Shown here: positions 18,344-63,987 of the stretch, one piece after another
How the letters are laid out: every line of letters begins with the position of its first letter
Position numbering within the stretch: the stretch's first letter is position 1
Origin: Campylobacteraceae bacterium
GTDB lineage: Bacteria; Campylobacterota; Campylobacteria; Campylobacterales; Sulfurovaceae
Direction of reading: 5' to 3'
DNA: 64,000 nucleotides
Assembly: GCA_027065385.1 (NCBI GenBank)
Contig: JAMOOP010000009.1
Span: 1 to 64,000, forward strand
Notes under the pieces: model-generated
The model's database searches: none
The model's input: only the letters and a program-made list of their open reading frames with translations
Told to the model about the DNA's origin: nothing
Translations under genes and position numbers: made by a program

Positions 18344-18384
18344 TATAATCTTTTTTAAACTAAATTAACACTAAATTAACACTA
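18321..18384 (+). promoter_or_regulatory. Operator-like array: three TTAACACTA copies at 18321, 18365 and 18376
   Basis: Two 11-bp tandem units (ACTAAATTAAC x2 plus ACTA) at 18359-18384, and a further TTAACACTA exactly 44 bp upstream of the first. Confidence 0.5.
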
Positions 18385-18429
18385 CTTCTATATTATAAGC
18401 TTATAATTAATATAAAAGGAGTGAGAAGT

Positions 18430-20454
18430 ATGAAAAAAACAGTCTGTCTATCATTAGTTTGTATTGGATTTTTAAGTGCATCAGAGCAGTTGGAGGATAT
18501 TGATATAGTAGGAGAGACCACAAGTGAGATGGTTCAAAATGTTTATAGTGAGGAGATACAGAGTGCCGATTTAGCAGATGCCTTACAGAGAAATATTCCT
18601 AGCATATCAATAATAAGAAGAAGTGGAATTGCTAATGATATTATTTTAAGGGGTCAAAGTAGAGATAATATTAATGTAATTGTTGATGGTGCAAAGGTTT
18701 GTGGAGCGTGTGTTAATAGAATGGACCCACCAACATCTCATGTAGTTACAAGTATTATAGATGATGTAGAGGTAACAGAAGGTCCTTTTGATGTTGAAGA
18801 TTTTGGAACTTTAAGTGGTGCAGTAAAAGTTACAACTCAAAAACCAACAAAAAATTTAAGTGGAGAGATAGGTACAAATATCGGTTCATTTGGATACCAA
18901 AAATTTTCAGGAACAATAAGTGGTGGAACAGATAAAGTTAGAGTACTTTTAACAGGTTCTACTGAAAAGGGTGAACAGTATAAAGATGGTGATGGGAATG
19001 ATTTAGCTACTCAATTAGAAAACTATACAAAAGATAGAGGATTATCTGGATTTAACTACACTTCAAGATATAAAGATATGGACGCATTTGAAAAAAGTGT
19101 CATAATGGGTAAAATATTTATTGATATTACTGATAATCAGGAGTTAAGATTAAGTTATACAGCTAATAGAAGTGATGATATTCTATATCCATCAAGTAAA
19201 ATGGATGCTATATATGATGATAGTGATATAATGAATTTAGAGTATAGTGCTGAAAATTTAGGAAAATTCTCTAAAAAATTAGATTTTCAACTATATAACT
19301 CTACAGTAGAACACCCAATGAGTACACAGTATCGTAATGTAGGACAAGATAAGTTTATGACTCATAAATTAACAACTGAAATGACAGGAATTAAACTAAA
19401 AAATAGTATTGATGCTTTTGATAGAGAGTTTACTTATGGAATTGATAGTAGCAAACGAAATTGGGACGGTCATTATTATATGACAATGATTAAAAAAGGT
19501 ATAATAAAAGAGACAGGAACGAGTATTAATGATATTGATACAGATAATATTGGTCTCTTTATAAAGTGTAAAAGAGATATAGGAGATGTAAAGATTGCAT
19601 GGGGTGCTAGATATGATGATACATCAATAGATACTAAATCTAAAACAGAAAAAGATAATGATTATAGCTCATTTTCTGCTAATATCTTTACAACATATAA
19701 ATTAAACCAAGATGTAAATATATTTGGAGGAGTTGGAAAATCAAGCAGAGTACCAGATGCAAGAGAACTTTATAATACCAAATATGCAAAACAGACAGAT
19801 GGAACACTAAAAAGAGTAGTTAATGGTAATCCAAATTTAAAACAGACAAAAAACTATGAAGTTGATTTAGGAGTGGAAAAATACTTCTCAAATGGAAAAA
19901 TAAAAGTAAAAACATTCTACTCAAAACTAGAAGATTATATATATTATAATAGTAGTAAAATGATAAATAGTTTTGAAAATATTGATGCTCATATATATGG
20001 TGCTGAACTTAATGGAAACTATTTATTAACAGATACAGTAAGTTTTGATACAGGATTAGCCTATAAAAAAGGGTATAAAGACAGCCAACCACAAGGACAG
20101 AAAGATAAAAACTTAGCAAATATATCACCAATAAAACTAAATGCTTCACTAAATTATGATTACGACGACCAAGGATTTATTCAACTATCGCTTATTTCAG
20201 CTGGAAAATGGGAAGATATTGATAGTGAAAATGGAGAACAAAAACTTGATGGATACACTATTTTAAATCTAAAAACAAGTAGAGAGTTTAATAACGGTGT
20301 TGTACTAACAGCAGGAGTTGATAATATATTAGATGAGACTTATGCTATAACAAATACATATAAAGATTTAATATTAATGACAGACAATAGTGATACTATG
20401 CTTATTAATGAGATGGGAAGATACCTATATCTTAATGCCAAATATAAATTTTAA
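18430..20454 (+). CDS. TonB-dependent outer-membrane receptor, copper (OprC/NosA) type
   Basis: Plug 'DIILRGQSRDNINVIVDGAKVCGACVNRMDPPTSHV', C-terminal barrel '...RYLYLNAKYKF'; ATG at 18430 has an AAAGGAG SD (the track starts at GTG 18421). Confidence 0.85.
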   Translation: MKKTVCLSLVCIGFLSASEQLEDIDIVGETTSEMVQNVYSEEIQSADLADALQRNIPSISIIRRSGIANDIILRGQSRDNINVIVDGAKVCGACVNRMDPPTSHVVTSIIDDVEVTEGPFDVEDFGTLSGAVKVTTQKPTKNLSGEIGTNIGSFGYQKFSGTISGGTDKVRVLLTGSTEKGEQYKDGDGNDLATQLENYTKDRGLSGFNYTSRYKDMDAFEKSVIMGKIFIDITDNQELRLSYTANRSDDILYPSSKMDAIYDDSDIMNLEYSAENLGKFSKKLDFQLYNSTVEHPMSTQYRNVGQDKFMTHKLTTEMTGIKLKNSIDAFDREFTYGIDSSKRNWDGHYYMTMIKKGIIKETGTSINDIDTDNIGLFIKCKRDIGDVKIAWGARYDDTSIDTKSKTEKDNDYSSFSANIFTTYKLNQDVNIFGGVGKSSRVPDARELYNTKYAKQTDGTLKRVVNGNPNLKQTKNYEVDLGVEKYFSNGKIKVKTFYSKLEDYIYYNSSKMINSFENIDAHIYGAELNGNYLLTDTVSFDTGLAYKKGYKDSQPQGQKDKNLANISPIKLNASLNYDYDDQGFIQLSLISAGKWEDIDSENGEQKLDGYTILNLKTSREFNNGVVLTAGVDNILDETYAITNTYKDLILMTDNSDTMLINEMGRYLYLNAKYKF

Positions 20455-54369: not shown

Positions 54370-55659
54370 CTATTGATGTAAAAAACGCTCAAAAGGAAAT
54401 ATAATACTAGCTATTGCTCCCTGTTTATCTGTTCTATTTTTAAGTGTAAGTTGCACTCCCATAGATTCTGCTGCATTTTGTGCAAGGAATAGTCCAAGCC
54501 CAGCTCCCGTTGACTCTGTAGAGCGTTTAAATGGTGCAAATAGGTTTTCTGACTCATCTATACCTTTACCCTCATCTATAATATCAACTATAAAACTCTT
54601 CTCATCAGTATGGACTAAAATTTTTACTAATCCACCCTCTGGTGTAAATCTAAGTGCATTTTGAACAAAGTTTTGGAAAATTTGCATAAATAGAAGTGGT
54701 TGAATACTTATCATAAATCTCTCTGTTTCAAAGTTATATATAAAATCTCTATTTTGTGAATGTGCTAAAAGTTCATACTCTTCAGCCTTTTTTGCTATAA
54801 ATCTAATAATATTAATTCTTTCAGGTTTTTCAAACTGTCCACCCTCTGCTCTTCCATACTCTAAGATGTTATGTATCATATTGTTTAGAGTATCAATAGA
54901 CTCTATATTTTGAAGTAGTGTCTCTTTTATTTTATCATTTTTTTTATACTTCATAAGGGTTATTTGGTTTTTTAGTCTCATAACAGCTAAAGGTGTTTTT
55001 AACTCATGAGCAGTTCCTACATATAACTCTTTTCTATAGTTTATTGATGTTTTTATTTTATTAATTAAAGCATTAAATGAGTTTGCTACTTTTTCAAACT
55101 CAAAAGGTAACTCTTTTGTATCTATAGGTTTTAAAATACTCTCATTCATATTACTAAATTTATAAGTTAGTTTATTAAGAGGTTTCATAAGTTGTGATGA
55201 AAGTTTAGATGCGTAATATAGTATAAATATAAATCCTATAAGGGTAATTATTAACATTGTTAGATATATATTTTCTAATAAATTATTTTGGTCTGTTATA
55301 TCTTTAGTTAAAATAATAGATTTATTAGAGTTTGGGTAAGGGTATGAGGCTTTTAAGTAGTAGTTATTATCTATTTTTACTCTTTTAATTGGAACTTGTT
55401 CTAAAGAGTCTCCAACTGTTACCTCAATATCAAATATTCTTTTTAAATTAAATATATTAAAATCTTTAAAAAACTCTTTCTCATCAGGATAATAACGGAC
55501 AATAGCTTCTGCCTGTTGTCTAAAATTTCTCTCTGTTGTCTTATTTATATAAGATGATAAAAAAAACGATATAAATATAGTAACGGCAATGAGCATAGCT
55601 GTCATAATAACAGCTATCTCTAAAAAAAAACTAATTCCTAAGCTCCTTTTGGAAAGCAA
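54370..55659 (-). CDS. Sensor histidine kinase
   Basis: Two TM helices, H-box 'YVGTAHELKTPLAVMRLK', 'STGAGLGLFLAQNAAESMG'; overlaps the RR gene by 22 bp. Confidence 0.92.
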   Translation of the reverse strand: MLSKRSLGISFFLEIAVIMTAMLIAVTIFISFFLSSYINKTTERNFRQQAEAIVRYYPDEKEFFKDFNIFNLKRIFDIEVTVGDSLEQVPIKRVKIDNNYYLKASYPYPNSNKSIILTKDITDQNNLLENIYLTMLIITLIGFIFILYYASKLSSQLMKPLNKLTYKFSNMNESILKPIDTKELPFEFEKVANSFNALINKIKTSINYRKELYVGTAHELKTPLAVMRLKNQITLMKYKKNDKIKETLLQNIESIDTLNNMIHNILEYGRAEGGQFEKPERINIIRFIAKKAEEYELLAHSQNRDFIYNFETERFMISIQPLLFMQIFQNFVQNALRFTPEGGLVKILVHTDEKSFIVDIIDEGKGIDESENLFAPFKRSTESTGAGLGLFLAQNAAESMGVQLTLKNRTDKQGAIASIIFPFERFLHQ

Positions 55660-56309
55660 AATCTATAACCTCTTCTTCTGACTGTTTCAATAGTCGTAAT
55701 ATTTAATGGTTTATCCATTTTTTGTCTAATCTGATTAATAGCAACCTCAATTACATTAGGAGTTACTAACTCAGGCTCTTCCCAAATAGCATCTAAAAGT
55801 TGCTCTTTTGATACAATTTGGTCTTTGTGCATAGCTAAGTGAGTTAAAACCTCAAAAGGTTTACCTTTAAGTTCAATCTCTTCACCTTCATATATAATTC
55901 TCTCCTCTTCAGGATTAATTACAAGATTTTCTACTTCAATAATATTAGAACCACCAAATCTAAGTTTTGCCTCAATTCTAGTAGTAAGTATCTCAAAATC
56001 AAAAGGTTTTCTAATAAAATCATCAGCTCCAGCTCTTAGAGCTTCAATCTCACTCTCTCTATCATCTCTTGCTGATAGAATTATCACAGAAGTTTTTGGT
56101 GCTTTCTCTTTTAATTTAACAATTATATCAATTCCGTTACCATCTGGTAACATCCAGTCTAAAAGTACTAAATCATAATTTCTAATTCCTAAATAATATT
56201 CACCATCTTTAATATTTGCAGCTACATCATTTTGAAATCCAAACTCTTTTAATCCGTCTGATAATGTCTTGCTTAATGTAATTTCATCTTCAATAATTAA
56301 TATTCTCAT
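55638..56309 (-). CDS. OmpR-family response regulator, HsrA/HP1043-like DNA-binding domain with canonical receiver
   Basis: 'VLLDWMLPDG' phospho-Asp, 'IRKPF' Lys; 'GKPFEVLTHLAMHKDQIVSKEQLLDAIWEEPELVTPNVIEVAINQIRQKMDKPLNITTIETVRRRGYRFCFPK' nearly matches H. pylori HsrA as recalled. Confidence 0.9.
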   Translation of the reverse strand: MRILIIEDEITLSKTLSDGLKEFGFQNDVAANIKDGEYYLGIRNYDLVLLDWMLPDGNGIDIIVKLKEKAPKTSVIILSARDDRESEIEALRAGADDFIRKPFDFEILTTRIEAKLRFGGSNIIEVENLVINPEEERIIYEGEEIELKGKPFEVLTHLAMHKDQIVSKEQLLDAIWEEPELVTPNVIEVAINQIRQKMDKPLNITTIETVRRRGYRFCFPKGA

Positions 56310-59686: not shown

Positions 59687-59809
59687 TTACTTTTCCATTT
59701 TGAAATATCAAACTCTATTCTATCTTTTCTTATATCAAGATAAGATAAATATAGATAATTTAAAACTAAGTCAAAGAGTATATGAGTTAAAATCAAGAAA
59801 AGATATAAT

Positions 59810-60499
59810 ATGCAAGAGAAATCAAAATTAATAAAACAGACTATTTTACTACTAGAAGATGACCTACAACTAAGTGATACAATTAAACAGTTTTTAGAGT
59901 ATAAAGATTATAGTGTCTATCCTGCCTATAATGCTTATGAGGCTAAAGATATTTTATATGAGAAAAGAGTTGATTTAATGCTTTTAGATGTAAAAGTACC
60001 ATATCAAAATGGTTTTGATTTTTTAAAGGAAGTAAGAGAAGAGAAAAATAGTGTTCCTGCTATATTTATTACCTCTTTAAATAGTGTTGATAATGTAGAG
60101 AGAGGTTTTGATATTGGGTGTGATGATTATATTAGAAAACCATTTGCCCTAAAAGAGTTACTTGTTAGAATTGAAGCTATATTTAAAAGGCAACTTTCGA
60201 GTTTTAAAAAGAGTATAGAGTTATCAAATGGATATACATTTGATTTAGCTAATAATCTTCTACTTAAAAATGGTAAGAGTGTAACAGTTAGGACAAAAGA
60301 GCTAAAACTTCTTATATTTTTTCTAAAAAATCCAAACAGACTACTTAGTTATAATAATATCTATAATGAACTTTGGGAATATAGTGAGACTCCTAGTCAA
60401 GGAAGTTTAAGAGCATATATTTCAACTATTAGAAATATTATAGGAAAAGATAAAATAGAGACAATTAAACATATAGGTTATAGATATGTTAAGCAGTGA
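59810..60499 (+). CDS. OmpR-family response regulator (TCS-1)
   Basis: 'LLLEDDLQL', 'LMLLDVKVPYQNG', 'DDYIRKPF', wHTH 'YISTIRNIIGKDKIETIKHIGYRYV'. Confidence 0.92.
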   Translation: MQEKSKLIKQTILLLEDDLQLSDTIKQFLEYKDYSVYPAYNAYEAKDILYEKRVDLMLLDVKVPYQNGFDFLKEVREEKNSVPAIFITSLNSVDNVERGFDIGCDDYIRKPFALKELLVRIEAIFKRQLSSFKKSIELSNGYTFDLANNLLLKNGKSVTVRTKELKLLIFFLKNPNRLLSYNNIYNELWEYSETPSQGSLRAYISTIRNIIGKDKIETIKHIGYRYVKQ

Positions 60500-61640
60500 A
60501 AAACGCTCACTGTTTAGATTTTTAACTATCTATTTAAGTTCAACCCTTCTGCTTTTTCTTTTAGCTACTACTATTCTTTACCACTATCAAAAACATAATA
60601 TTTTGGATAAACAGATAGATAGATTACATATAGAAGCTCAAAAGATAACTCAAAAACTAAGAGAACTCCACTCAATATTTAATAAACCTCTAATATATCC
60701 ATATAATAAACCTTTTAAATCAGCAATATATACAATAGATAAAAAGTATATATTTGGTTCATTTAGACCTAAGACTATATTGTGGAATAAGGAGTTTTAT
60801 ATAAAAAATAGAAGTCTATTTCTTATCTATAATATAAAACCATACTATTTAGGTGCATCATATTTAATAGTCTCTAAAAATATTAATGAAAAACCTATTT
60901 TAGACTTAAAAAAACTACTAATACTATTTTTATTAATTGCTTGTATATTTTTCACTATACTTGGACTATTTTTAGGAAAACTTTTTGTAGCACCTATGAA
61001 AGAGTCTATGGAGGGAATGAATAGATTTATTCAAGATACAACACATGAGTTAAATACACCTATTAGTACAATTTTAACAAATATAGAACTACTTGAGACA
61101 ATATATGATTGTGAAGGTAAAAAAGAGATGAAAAGAATAGAGATAGCCTCTAAAACATTAAGTAGACTTTATGAGGATTTAACATATTTAAAATTAAATA
61201 AGAGATACCATAGAGAGATAATATCTCTTGATATTTCAAAACTTTTATATGAAAGAGTAGATTTTTTTTATACTATAATAGAGGCAAAAGAGTTAAACTT
61301 AATATTAGATATCGAACCTAGAGTTATAATTAATATTGATTATAATGATGCTATTCGTCTTATAGATAATATCTTATCTAATGCTATAAAATATAATAAA
61401 AAAGAGGGAGATTTAAAAATATATCTTAATAAAAATATATTTAAAGTCTATAATAGTGGAATTGGAATAGATAAAAAAGATTTAAAAAGGGTAAAAGAGA
61501 GATTTAATAGAGCAAATTTAAGTGAGGGTGGATTTGGTATAGGTTTAGATATAATTGAATATATTGTAAATATCTATAAATTTAAATTCTCTATTGAGTC
61601 TGAAAAAGAGATATTTACAAAGGTAACAATAAAATGGTAA
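60486..61640 (+). CDS. Sensor histidine kinase (TCS-1)
   Basis: TM helices, H-box 'FIQDTTHELNTPISTILTN', 'GGFGIGLDIIEYI'; overlaps the RR by 14 bp. Confidence 0.92.
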   Translation: MLSSEKRSLFRFLTIYLSSTLLLFLLATTILYHYQKHNILDKQIDRLHIEAQKITQKLRELHSIFNKPLIYPYNKPFKSAIYTIDKKYIFGSFRPKTILWNKEFYIKNRSLFLIYNIKPYYLGASYLIVSKNINEKPILDLKKLLILFLLIACIFFTILGLFLGKLFVAPMKESMEGMNRFIQDTTHELNTPISTILTNIELLETIYDCEGKKEMKRIEIASKTLSRLYEDLTYLKLNKRYHREIISLDISKLLYERVDFFYTIIEAKELNLILDIEPRVIINIDYNDAIRLIDNILSNAIKYNKKEGDLKIYLNKNIFKVYNSGIGIDKKDLKRVKERFNRANLSEGGFGIGLDIIEYIVNIYKFKFSIESEKEIFTKVTIKW

Positions 61641-61984
61641 ATTTTTTTCTATTTCTAACTATAATATTATTTGCCAATAGCTCATCTTTAGAGTTAGAAA
61701 AAAACTGTTTAAATTGCCATAAGATACAAAAAATTCCAAGTGAACTTATATATAGGCGTTATCTTATGCACTATAGTAATAAAAAAGTTATTGAAAATAA
61801 GATATTTAAATATCTTAAAAATCCTAAAAAAGAGAACTCTATTATGCCAAATCAATTTTTTCTGAAATTTCCTATGAAAAAAAGAGTTGATTTAAATAAT
61901 AGTCTATTAGAAAATAGTATAAAAGAGTATATAGAGCTATTTGATATTAGAAAAAAGCTGATTTTACCAAAAAAAACAAAGTAA
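61634..61984 (+). CDS. Secreted small monoheme cytochrome c-like protein
   Basis: Signal peptide, single CLNCH heme motif, candidate distal Met 'NSIMPNQFF'; overlaps HK-1 by 7 bp. Confidence 0.7.
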   Translation: MVNFFLFLTIILFANSSSLELEKNCLNCHKIQKIPSELIYRRYLMHYSNKKVIENKIFKYLKNPKKENSIMPNQFFLKFPMKKRVDLNNSLLENSIKEYIELFDIRKKLILPKKTK

Positions 61985-62031
61985 CATTTCTTTAACAATT
62001 TTAGTGTAAAATTGGCTATAAGGAGTATCTT

Positions 62032-62346
62032 ATGAAAAAATATATATTAATATATCTATTTTTTATCACTTTTACTTTTAACCTTTTTGCAGAAGATAGT
62101 GGAGAAATCCAGATTAAATCTCTAATTGAAAAAATACAAAGTGCTAAAGTTGAAGATAGGCGAGAGTTAATGAACCAACTCAAACTTAAATTAAGAGAAA
62201 TAAATAAAGATAGTCGAAAAAAAACAGTAATGGAGCTAAAAAAATCTTTAAGAAGAAAAAATGGTCAAAATTGCAAAGGATTTAATAAAAATAGAGGAGA
62301 AAGAATGCACAGACATAGACATCTACACCTTAGGAGTCATAGATAG
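62032..62346 (+). CDS. Secreted helical protein with His-rich C-terminus
   Basis: Signal peptide, charged helices, 'MHRHRHLHLRSHR' tail; TAGTG overlap with the next RR. Confidence 0.65.
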   Translation: MKKYILIYLFFITFTFNLFAEDSGEIQIKSLIEKIQSAKVEDRRELMNQLKLKLREINKDSRKKTVMELKKSLRRKNGQNCKGFNKNRGERMHRHRHLHLRSHR

Positions 62347-62975
62347 TGAATAGATTACTTTTACTAGAAGATGACCCAAATCTATCAAAAAGCCTTATAA
62401 AATATTTAAAATTTAATGGATATAGCATCGATTGGGCAAAAAATGGGGAAGAGGCAATGGATTTAAGTTATGAGAATAATTATGATTTATACCTTTTTGA
62501 TATAAATGTACCACTACTAAATGGTGTTGATTTACTTACAGCATTAAGAGAGGCAGAGGATTTTACCCCCACTATTATAATATCGGCTATGGTTGATATA
62601 AATTCCGTAACAAGTGGATTTATAGCTGGTGCTGATGATTATGTAAAAAAACCATTTGACCCTGAAGAGTTACTTATACGAATAAAAGCTAAAACAGCTT
62701 CACTTAAAAATAGATTGAAGTTTAGAGATTTTGAAATAGATTTACAAACAAAAGAGATAAGATATAAAAAAGAGTTACTCCATATGGGATTTGTTCAAAA
62801 GAATATACTTATATCACTTATTCAAAACTATCCAAACCCCGTAACAAAAGATGAACTACTTTTACTTCTTGATAAACCAACAGATTTGGCTTTAAGAGTT
62901 AATATTGCAAAATTAAAAAAGAGTTTAGATATTCAAATTCAGAGTATAAGAGGGGTTGGTTATAAAATTATTTGA
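62346..62975 (+). CDS. OmpR-family response regulator (TCS-2)
   Basis: GTG start; 'LLLEDDPNL', 'LYLFDINVPLLNG', 'DDYVKKPF', 'RVNIAKLKKSLDIQIQSIRGVGYKII'. Confidence 0.92.
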   Translation: MNRLLLLEDDPNLSKSLIKYLKFNGYSIDWAKNGEEAMDLSYENNYDLYLFDINVPLLNGVDLLTALREAEDFTPTIIISAMVDINSVTSGFIAGADDYVKKPFDPEELLIRIKAKTASLKNRLKFRDFEIDLQTKEIRYKKELLHMGFVQKNILISLIQNYPNPVTKDELLLLLDKPTDLALRVNIAKLKKSLDIQIQSIRGVGYKII

Positions 62976-63987
62976 AAAAGAGTCTCTTATTAAGGGCTTC
63001 AGTCTATTTTTTATTGTAATTGAACTTTTTTTATCTTTTATTTTCTATAACTACTATAGATTAGAAGAAGAACATCTAAGTGAAGAGATATTTTTGGAGA
63101 TGAAAAATTATAGCTTCTTTTTTGATGATAATAGATTTGATATAAATATTGTTCCAAAGGTAAAAGAGAGTCAGTTATATGAGCTATATTTTGATAATCA
63201 AAATCTATATATATTAGTGCCACTTCTTGATGATAAAGATAACTCTTTAGAGATTATATATCCACTATCTAAATATAAGAGTAAATTAAAAAATATTCAA
63301 TATGAACTTTTAGGTCAGTTTCTTATACTATCTTTTATTGCTATTTTAATATCTCTGCTTTTTGCCTTTTATGCTTTGCACCCATTAAGAAATGCCCTAC
63401 TTCTTTTAGAGGAGTTTATTAAAGATATTATTCATGATTTAAATACTCCAATTACAACTATTCTTATAAATCTAAAAATGATGAAAAGAGATGACGAGGT
63501 TGAAAGTATTGCTCAAAGTGCAAATGCTATTGCTATGTTACATAAAAATTTAGCAATTTATTTAAATGATAGTAACTTTCAAAAAGAGAGTTTTTCTATT
63601 AAAAAGGTTATAGATGAGCAGGTTAAATTTTTCTACTCTCTATATGATTATATCTCTTGGGATATTGATATAAAAGAGCAGACTGTAGTCTCTAATAAAA
63701 ATGCTTTAAGTCGAGTTATATATAATTTATTAAGTAATGCTTGTAAATATAATACAACAAATGGATTTATAAAAATTAAAATGGAAGAAAACTTAACTCT
63801 TACTATTACAAATAGTAGTTATGGCATTAAAAATCCATCAAATGTTTTTAATAGATTTTATAAAGAGAGTGATAGAGGACTTGGTATTGGATTGCATATT
63901 GTTGATAAATTATGTAAAGAGTTAAATATTAATAAAAGATTAGAGGTATCAAAAGATGAAGTAACAGTTACACTTATTTTTAATTGA
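62956..63987 (+). CDS. Sensor histidine kinase (TCS-2)
   Basis: TTG start; TM helices, H-box 'FIKDIIHDLNTPITTILINL', 'DRGLGIGLHIVDKL'; overlaps RR-2 by 20 bp. Confidence 0.9.
   Translation: MVIKLFEKESLIKGFSLFFIVIELFLSFIFYNYYRLEEEHLSEEIFLEMKNYSFFFDDNRFDINIVPKVKESQLYELYFDNQNLYILVPLLDDKDNSLEIIYPLSKYKSKLKNIQYELLGQFLILSFIAILISLLFAFYALHPLRNALLLLEEFIKDIIHDLNTPITTILINLKMMKRDDEVESIAQSANAIAMLHKNLAIYLNDSNFQKESFSIKKVIDEQVKFFYSLYDYISWDIDIKEQTVVSNKNALSRVIYNLLSNACKYNTTNGFIKIKMEENLTLTITNSSYGIKNPSNVFNRFYKESDRGLGIGLHIVDKLCKELNINKRLEVSKDEVTVTLIFN

Follow-up and report, generated by a model that had tools for sequence, protein, structure and literature searches.

The locus at positions 59810 to 63987 of the window, the 64,000-nucleotide stretch of contig C9 of a Campylobacteraceae draft genome that was analysed here, raises the question of whether two closely spaced regulator-kinase pairs and two small secreted proteins form one sensory cluster, as an initial annotation had proposed, or several systems. 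The six genes are two separate modules and not one locally duplicated cluster: they encode two unrelated sensor-regulator pairs, each with its own small secreted partner, and the arrangement is not a freak of this genome. The reading that we favour, at a probability of roughly 0.55, is that the pair of module 1 (RR1-HK1) would be an envelope-stress system driving RND efflux, for which a putative cytochrome (CYT) would sense redox state or a ligand in the periplasm, while module 2 (HIS-RR2-HK2) would act independently of it with an accessory protein. The features of the locus are as follows.

59810..60499, + strand: RR1, OmpR-type response regulator of module 1 (Pfam Response_reg, 1.9e-23; Trans_reg_C, 6e-15)
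60486..61640, + strand: HK1, membrane sensor histidine kinase of module 1 (HisKA/HATPase_c; H-box HELNTPI at H187)
61634..61984, + strand: CYT, putative small secreted monohaem c-type cytochrome (CLNCH at residues 25-29; candidate axial Met71 in SIMP)
61982..62012, + strand: predicted module 2 operator and promoter (TAACA-N6-TAACA, 9 nucleotides, TAAAAT −10 box)
62032..62346, + strand: HIS, HIS-family small secreted helical protein with a His/Arg tail, candidate HK2 accessory protein
62346..62975, + strand: RR2, OmpR-like response regulator of module 2 (GTG start; Pfam Response_reg, 1.2e-23)
62956..63987, + strand: HK2, membrane sensor histidine kinase of module 2 (TTG start; HisKA/HATPase_c; H-box HDLNTPI)

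The six open reading frames lie on one strand and mostly overlap (by 14, 7, 1 and 20 nucleotides), and their coordinates in the initial annotation were borne out; the sole non-overlapping junction is a 47-nucleotide gap between CYT and HIS. Both pairs carry HisKA with its phospho-acceptor His, HATPase_c, a receiver and a C-terminal DNA-binding domain, that of RR2 being degenerate (Trans_reg_C E value of 2.8e-4, with a score of 21.3 that is below the Pfam cut-off of 26.2). Neither CYT nor HIS had an accepted match in Pfam or NCBIfam.

Separate origins of the two modules

HK1 and HK2 are 28% identical, and each is nearer to an unlinked paralogue of the same genome (on C122 for HK1, ∼40% identity; on C91 for HK2, 39%) than to the other. 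In a tree of 107 kinase rows, made by a quick method and with long branches flagged, HK2 was located in a clade of 16 rows with an SH-aLRT support of 100 and a branch length of 2.09, while HK1 belonged to a group of 23 rows (group A, support of 94) lying beside a second group of 38 rows (group B, support of 99). The orthologues of HK2 are 56 to 83% identical. These separate, order-wide clades, together with the unrelated accessory genes of the two modules, run counter to the earlier suggestion that this lineage gained the two pairs through a local tandem duplication. We regard such an origin as extremely improbable despite the pairs being adjacent, on the same strand and alike in their H-boxes. 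The H-boxes themselves (HELNTPI in HK1 and HDLNTPI in HK2) had been read correctly. The form H(E/D)(L/F)NTPI is, however, common to four kinases of the source genome and usual across the whole HK1 family, most loci of which carry HELNTP; hence, the box is shared by wide families and is no pointer to recent duplication.

The view of the six genes as one interleaved module did not survive examination of the 47-nucleotide gap. This gap holds a response regulator-type direct repeat, TAACA-N6-TAACA, which starts inside the CYT stop codon and lies nine bases 5′ of a −10 box. As the repeat and −10 box are conserved upstream of the orthologues in three relatives (L092, L095 and L096), this promoter argues for two transcription units, with module 2 probably forming its own.

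Conserved-neighbourhood analysis supported the proposal that each pair has its own extracytoplasmic partner, the small genes being kept with their kinases in related genomes, which makes a chance arrangement untenable. For module 2, the combination of a HIS-type secreted protein with a kinase and an OmpR-type regulator is found repeatedly across the order: 44 of 59 HIS-family matches lay within 3.5 kb of an HK2-family kinase on the same strand, and 44 of 72 HK2-family kinases had a HIS-family protein within that distance, upstream or downstream, on the same strand. Group A kinases also co-occur with close orthologues of HK2 (10/12 genomes with HK2; p of 9e-6). Adjacency of both modules resembling that in the window was detected only in genome G031 and, a few kilobases apart, in G032.

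A putative cytochrome as the partner of HK1

Linkage of CYT to HK1-family kinases was determined for 100 related genomes; gene calls in the relatives were mechanical, and many of these genomes are fragmented drafts. A CYT homologue was present directly 3′ of the kinase for 21 of 27 group A and 61 of 72 group B kinases, giving 82/99 for the HK1 family versus 4/51 for other kinases (Fisher test, 8e-20, uncorrected for relatedness). Several of the HK1-family kinases with no adjacent CYT are at contig ends. Across the phylum, CYT was present in 122 of 396 near-complete Campylobacterota genomes and, counting all Campylobacterota genomes drawn, in 36 of 68 genera, and the kinase abutted CYT in 34 of the 35 best phylum-wide loci. 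CYT was not found in five genomes labelled as C. jejuni, C. showae, another Campylobacter, H. cinaedi and another Helicobacter. The gene is kept beside the kinase with or without a nearby pump, indicating that CYT is a partner of the kinase and not of the pump.

CYT is probably a c-type cytochrome, on the basis of its haem-binding motif, a signal-like N terminus and weak profile matches. Its single CxxCH motif (CLNCH) is invariant in 51/51 triads, Pro64 is also invariant among triads, and Met71, the candidate axial ligand, is present in 20/20 group A and 21/31 group B proteins. An AlphaFold model, which contains no haem, was all-helical (pLDDT of 87). A PDB fold search with this model gave no match at an E value of 0.001 or better, and no PDB profile match was better than 0.035; Pfam Cytochrome_CBB3 reached a best E value of 0.0052 among CYT members and gave no match for the protein of the window. 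No recognisable family profile or fold of a class I c-type cytochrome was, thus, detected in CYT. The sCache_heme domains (DUF3365/Tll0287) are periplasmic haem sensors of which stand-alone forms exist (PMC12889525). They would share with CYT a covalent c-type haem in periplasmic signalling, but CYT is an all-helical separate protein and not a fused Cache domain, and PF11845 (Tll0287-like) matched only 3 of 26 CYT members with a best E value of 0.085.

HK1 has a small predicted periplasmic domain of five strands, with a conserved YYLG motif, between two membrane helices. Among the top matches of a fold search with HK1, only the kinase core was identified, the sensor domain having no named match. 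Coevolution of the kinase sensor with CYT was assessed by mirror-tree, but all components correlated about equally and no specific signal was obtained.

These observations bear on whether CYT senses or acts. CYT might be an effector that carries electrons in the periplasm, or a haem protein with a protective function, coexpressed with RR1-HK1 because the same conditions call for it. The first gene of the pump operon encodes a second monohaem cytochrome, distinct from CYT (L093, L095, L097, L100 and, in the source genome, L230), implying that this regulon has cytochromes among its products; a cytochrome c553 gene is also present in group B loci; and the candidate axial Met is kept in every group A protein, as in electron carriers. 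Set against this are the position of CYT 3′ of the kinase, which it usually overlaps or follows by no more than tens of bases, in both of two ancient groups of paralogues, the persistence of this placement with or without a pump or c553, the rarity of CYT without a nearby kinase (the group B CYT of the source genome and a few relatives being on another contig) and the lack of the candidate Met in a third of group B cytochromes. On balance, we consider an effector role unlikely, although a serious alternative to the sensor role of CYT that we favour. A broader version of that sensor role is that RR1-HK1-CYT constitutes a three-component Campylobacterota family of two ancient subfamilies, in which the kinase would have a free-standing secreted cytochrome c as its sensory subunit, reporting on a haem ligand or on the redox state of the periplasm; we advance this tentatively, at rather less than even odds. 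The subfamily often devoid of the candidate axial Met is a possible gas or ligand sensor.

Two features of the group B loci were also noted. The group B kinase of the source genome (G000:C122:2431-3618) has no adjacent CYT, which is found on another contig (G000:C163:53980-54300), and a separate contig also carries the group B CYT in relatives G004, G015, G017 and G028. A secreted, undescribed protein of ∼105 amino acids (CGFSGxKFAxxHTQDEWE), with no Pfam match, is encoded between CYT and the cytochrome c553 gene in group B loci (L171:8553-8870, L168:8603-8923 and similar).

Efflux genes linked to module 1

In several relatives, genes for TolC, MFP and an ACR_tran RND permease precede or follow the RR1-HK1-CYT triad, the permease being adjacent to it in L093, L103, L108, L109/L153, L110, L122 and L149. 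A group A kinase was present in 10/14 genomes with an orthologue of the RND permease versus 25/100 overall (p of 1e-4). The orthologous pump of the source genome is unlinked, being encoded on C139 in the order cytochrome-TolC-MFP-RND and led by a 137-amino-acid monohaem protein. Because of this linkage to efflux genes, the redox/metal sensory function that had been suggested for the locus is plausible for module 1; the metal-binding His-rich protein that formed its other half is not borne out (see below).

Linkage of this type invites comparison with characterised systems, CusRS and CrdRS serving as working analogies for the output and CpxP for the accessory idea. CrdRS of Helicobacter pylori is reported to respond to copper and nitric oxide. 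Module 1 shares with CrdRS an OmpR-type regulator, a single membrane kinase, a link to tripartite efflux and the same phylum. The CrdS phospho-acceptor, H173 (PMC9927306), is close in position to H187 of HK1. Module 1 could, hence, be a Campylobacterota form of a metal or nitric oxide system such as CrdRS or CusRS, in which the cytochrome is incidental. A dedicated secreted cytochrome is, however, a property of the RR1-HK1 family, and a search of three Campylobacter and two Helicobacter genomes recovered no CYT gene. In a tree containing neither CrdS nor any H. pylori sequence, a clade outside groups A and B was formed by the related kinases of H. cinaedi, a second Helicobacter and Campylobacter-labelled genomes. 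Similarly, CusRS/CopRS/CzcRS (TIGR01386, TIGR01387) combine an envelope kinase and an OmpR-type regulator acting on RND/TolC efflux genes, but module 1 differs in its cytochrome partner, H-box and predicted operator. The NCBIfam heavy-metal subfamily cut-offs were not reached by RR1 (CopR/CzcR, 98.8 versus 279.2) or by HK1 and HK2 (CopS/CzcS, 54.3 and 57.9 versus 292.55, i.e., 292.6), and the adjacent RND permease scored highest with multidrug-type subfamilies, below every cut-off. A variant of CrdRS or CusRS is, therefore, improbable, and RR1-HK1 with CYT as a sensory partner is still preferred.

Predicted operators and regulons

The predicted operators of both modules are direct repeats with an 11-base period located 9 to 10 bases before a −10 box. 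For module 1, TTMAY-N6-TTMAY was observed ten bases 5′ of the −10 box for the second cytochrome (7/15), TolC (4/9), RND (4/12) and RR1 (6/24), versus 35/1155 other genes; for module 2, GTAACA-type sites preceded 9/23 DUF2202 and 4/11 HIS genes versus 12/1155 other genes, both enrichments being partly circular as the motif forms were picked after some of the same promoters had been viewed. Less circular are the sites at the unlinked pump operon on G000:C139, of which there are two, one before the cytochrome and one before TolC, and the phyletic split of strict GTAACA sites, which were present in 8/9 genomes with HK2 and 0/11 without. A search of the source genome with the whole module 2 promoter pattern gave 8 matches versus 0 for a reversed-pattern control. 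The TTCAY pattern was noisy genome-wide (1 match in the source genome versus 3 for the control); hence, gene-class enrichment was used instead.

Strict GTAACA sites lie 5′ of DUF2202 genes, a DUF2202 lipoprotein, a DUF1104/EF-hand protein and a barrel protein, while the HIS gene of the source genome bears a TTAACA variant. In a close relative (G002), further TTMAY sites precede a gene for a cation-diffusion transporter (PF01545) and are also located near a MacA/MacB-like pair.

Other sites were encountered in these searches. One strict GTAACA-type site, at L341:2089-2119 (G000:C81), has no clear open reading frame behind it and possibly marks a decayed gene or a small RNA. In the window, a TAACACTAAATTAACA repeat with a −10 box (18366-18396, + strand) lies before the gene at 18421-20454, which encodes a TonB-dependent receptor (PF00593). 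Sites of the TAACACTAAATTAACA class also lie 5′ of genes for NosL-domain proteins on C130 and in relatives, including genomes without HK2; the TonB receptor/NosL sites may constitute a second, copper-like regulon.

A helical secreted protein in module 2

The HIS protein had been described as a His-rich metal-binding protein. Of its 104 residues, only 5 are His, all within the last 13, and this tail is not conserved; conservation is confined to a helical core, LMNQLKxQLRxMNKESR, and the metal-binding claim was accordingly dropped. Like CpxAR-CpxP and Spy-type systems, module 2 includes the gene for a small secreted helical protein and seems to regulate it, but the HIS family had no accepted Pfam match to CpxP/Spy or to DUF1104. 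At locus L213, of a genome labelled Campylobacter jejuni, a small secreted helical protein is likewise encoded directly 5′ of a response regulator and a HEINTPL kinase; that protein is a true DUF1104 (1e-22), whereas hhalign gave the HIS family a profile probability of 11% to it, too weak for a relation to be accepted.

In relatives, a TSP3/barrel protein is often encoded between HIS and RR2, and DUF2202 ferritin-like proteins are encoded nearby. In a HIS-family paralogue of the source genome (L089:4200-5078, G000:C91), the tail consists of some ten identical copies of NTHQEPINQPTIT.

Genome context

The source genome is a 2.66-Mb draft (96% complete, 5.8% contaminated), whose nearest named relative is a Sulfurovum metagenome-assembled genome (HK1 identity of 76%). 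The gene set runs on beyond the end of the window, the contig ending at 64757, and a DUF2202 gene (PF09968, 4e-39) is located just past the window at about 64071-64658. A −10-like TATAAT (59802-59807) lies two bases 5′ of the annotated ATG of RR1 and is likewise near the RR1 start at the orthologous locus L091; RR1 start codons may be misplaced, with the true start a little downstream. Another two-component pair is present nearby (54838-56309, − strand), comprising an OmpR-type regulator (55638-56309) and, just beyond, a HELKTP kinase.

Proposed mechanism

The locus would comprise two independent envelope-sensing two-component systems side by side. In module 1, the small periplasmic domain of HK1 would work with CYT made from the same operon. 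A toxic metal, nitric oxide or an electrophile would change the state of CYT by oxidation or by loss or exchange of an axial ligand, and this state would be passed to HK1, leading to phosphorylation of RR1; the signal, the sensing role of CYT and any contact between CYT and HK1 are our inference. RR1 would then bind the TTMAY-N6-TTMAY repeats over the −35 region and turn on efflux and protection genes, these being the TolC-MFP-RND pumps, the second cytochrome encoded at the head of the pump operon and the cation-diffusion transporter of a close relative. Control of RND/TolC efflux genes is supported by linkage, co-occurrence and operator enrichment, and RR1-HK1 appears to switch on efflux pumps. 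In module 2, HK2-RR2 would function with the helical secreted protein as a putative Spy/CpxP-like accessory, would be autoregulated through GTAACA-type repeats and would drive expression of secreted DUF2202 ferritin-like proteins and the DUF1104/EF-hand protein.

Several points weigh against the module 1 scheme. CYT could be a product of the regulon, and Met71 is missing from 10/31 group B cytochromes, so that the chemistry may differ between the groups. Assignment of TTMAY to RR1 is a prediction from linkage and autoregulation; no TTMAY repeat is present upstream of RR1 in the source genome, and the TTAAC half-sites overlap those of the other, copper-type (TonB receptor/NosL) regulon. Most group A genomes lacking the pump keep module 1, indicating that the pump is not its sole job. 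The enrichment p-values ignore genome relatedness, and the counts are uncorrected for shared ancestry.

Significance

The initial annotation had recognised no described system with this architecture, and none was found in the open-licence papers searched, which is weak evidence of novelty. Those papers contained nothing on a Campylobacterota cytochrome-kinase-RND combination or on DUF2202 with a two-component system, and for copper or RND in Sulfurovum a single, unrelated paper was retrieved. Signalling arrangements with this regulator-kinase-partner layout have received little study. Known cases of periplasmic sensing by c-type haem involve receptors with an integral haem domain. If the proposed role of CYT is true, a stand-alone cytochrome kept beside one kinase family would be a different way of coupling respiratory or redox state to gene control, and such a pairing of CYT and kinase spans free-living Campylobacterota. 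The predicted operators, pump genes and cytochrome are directly testable targets in the culturable Sulfurospirillum and Arcobacter.

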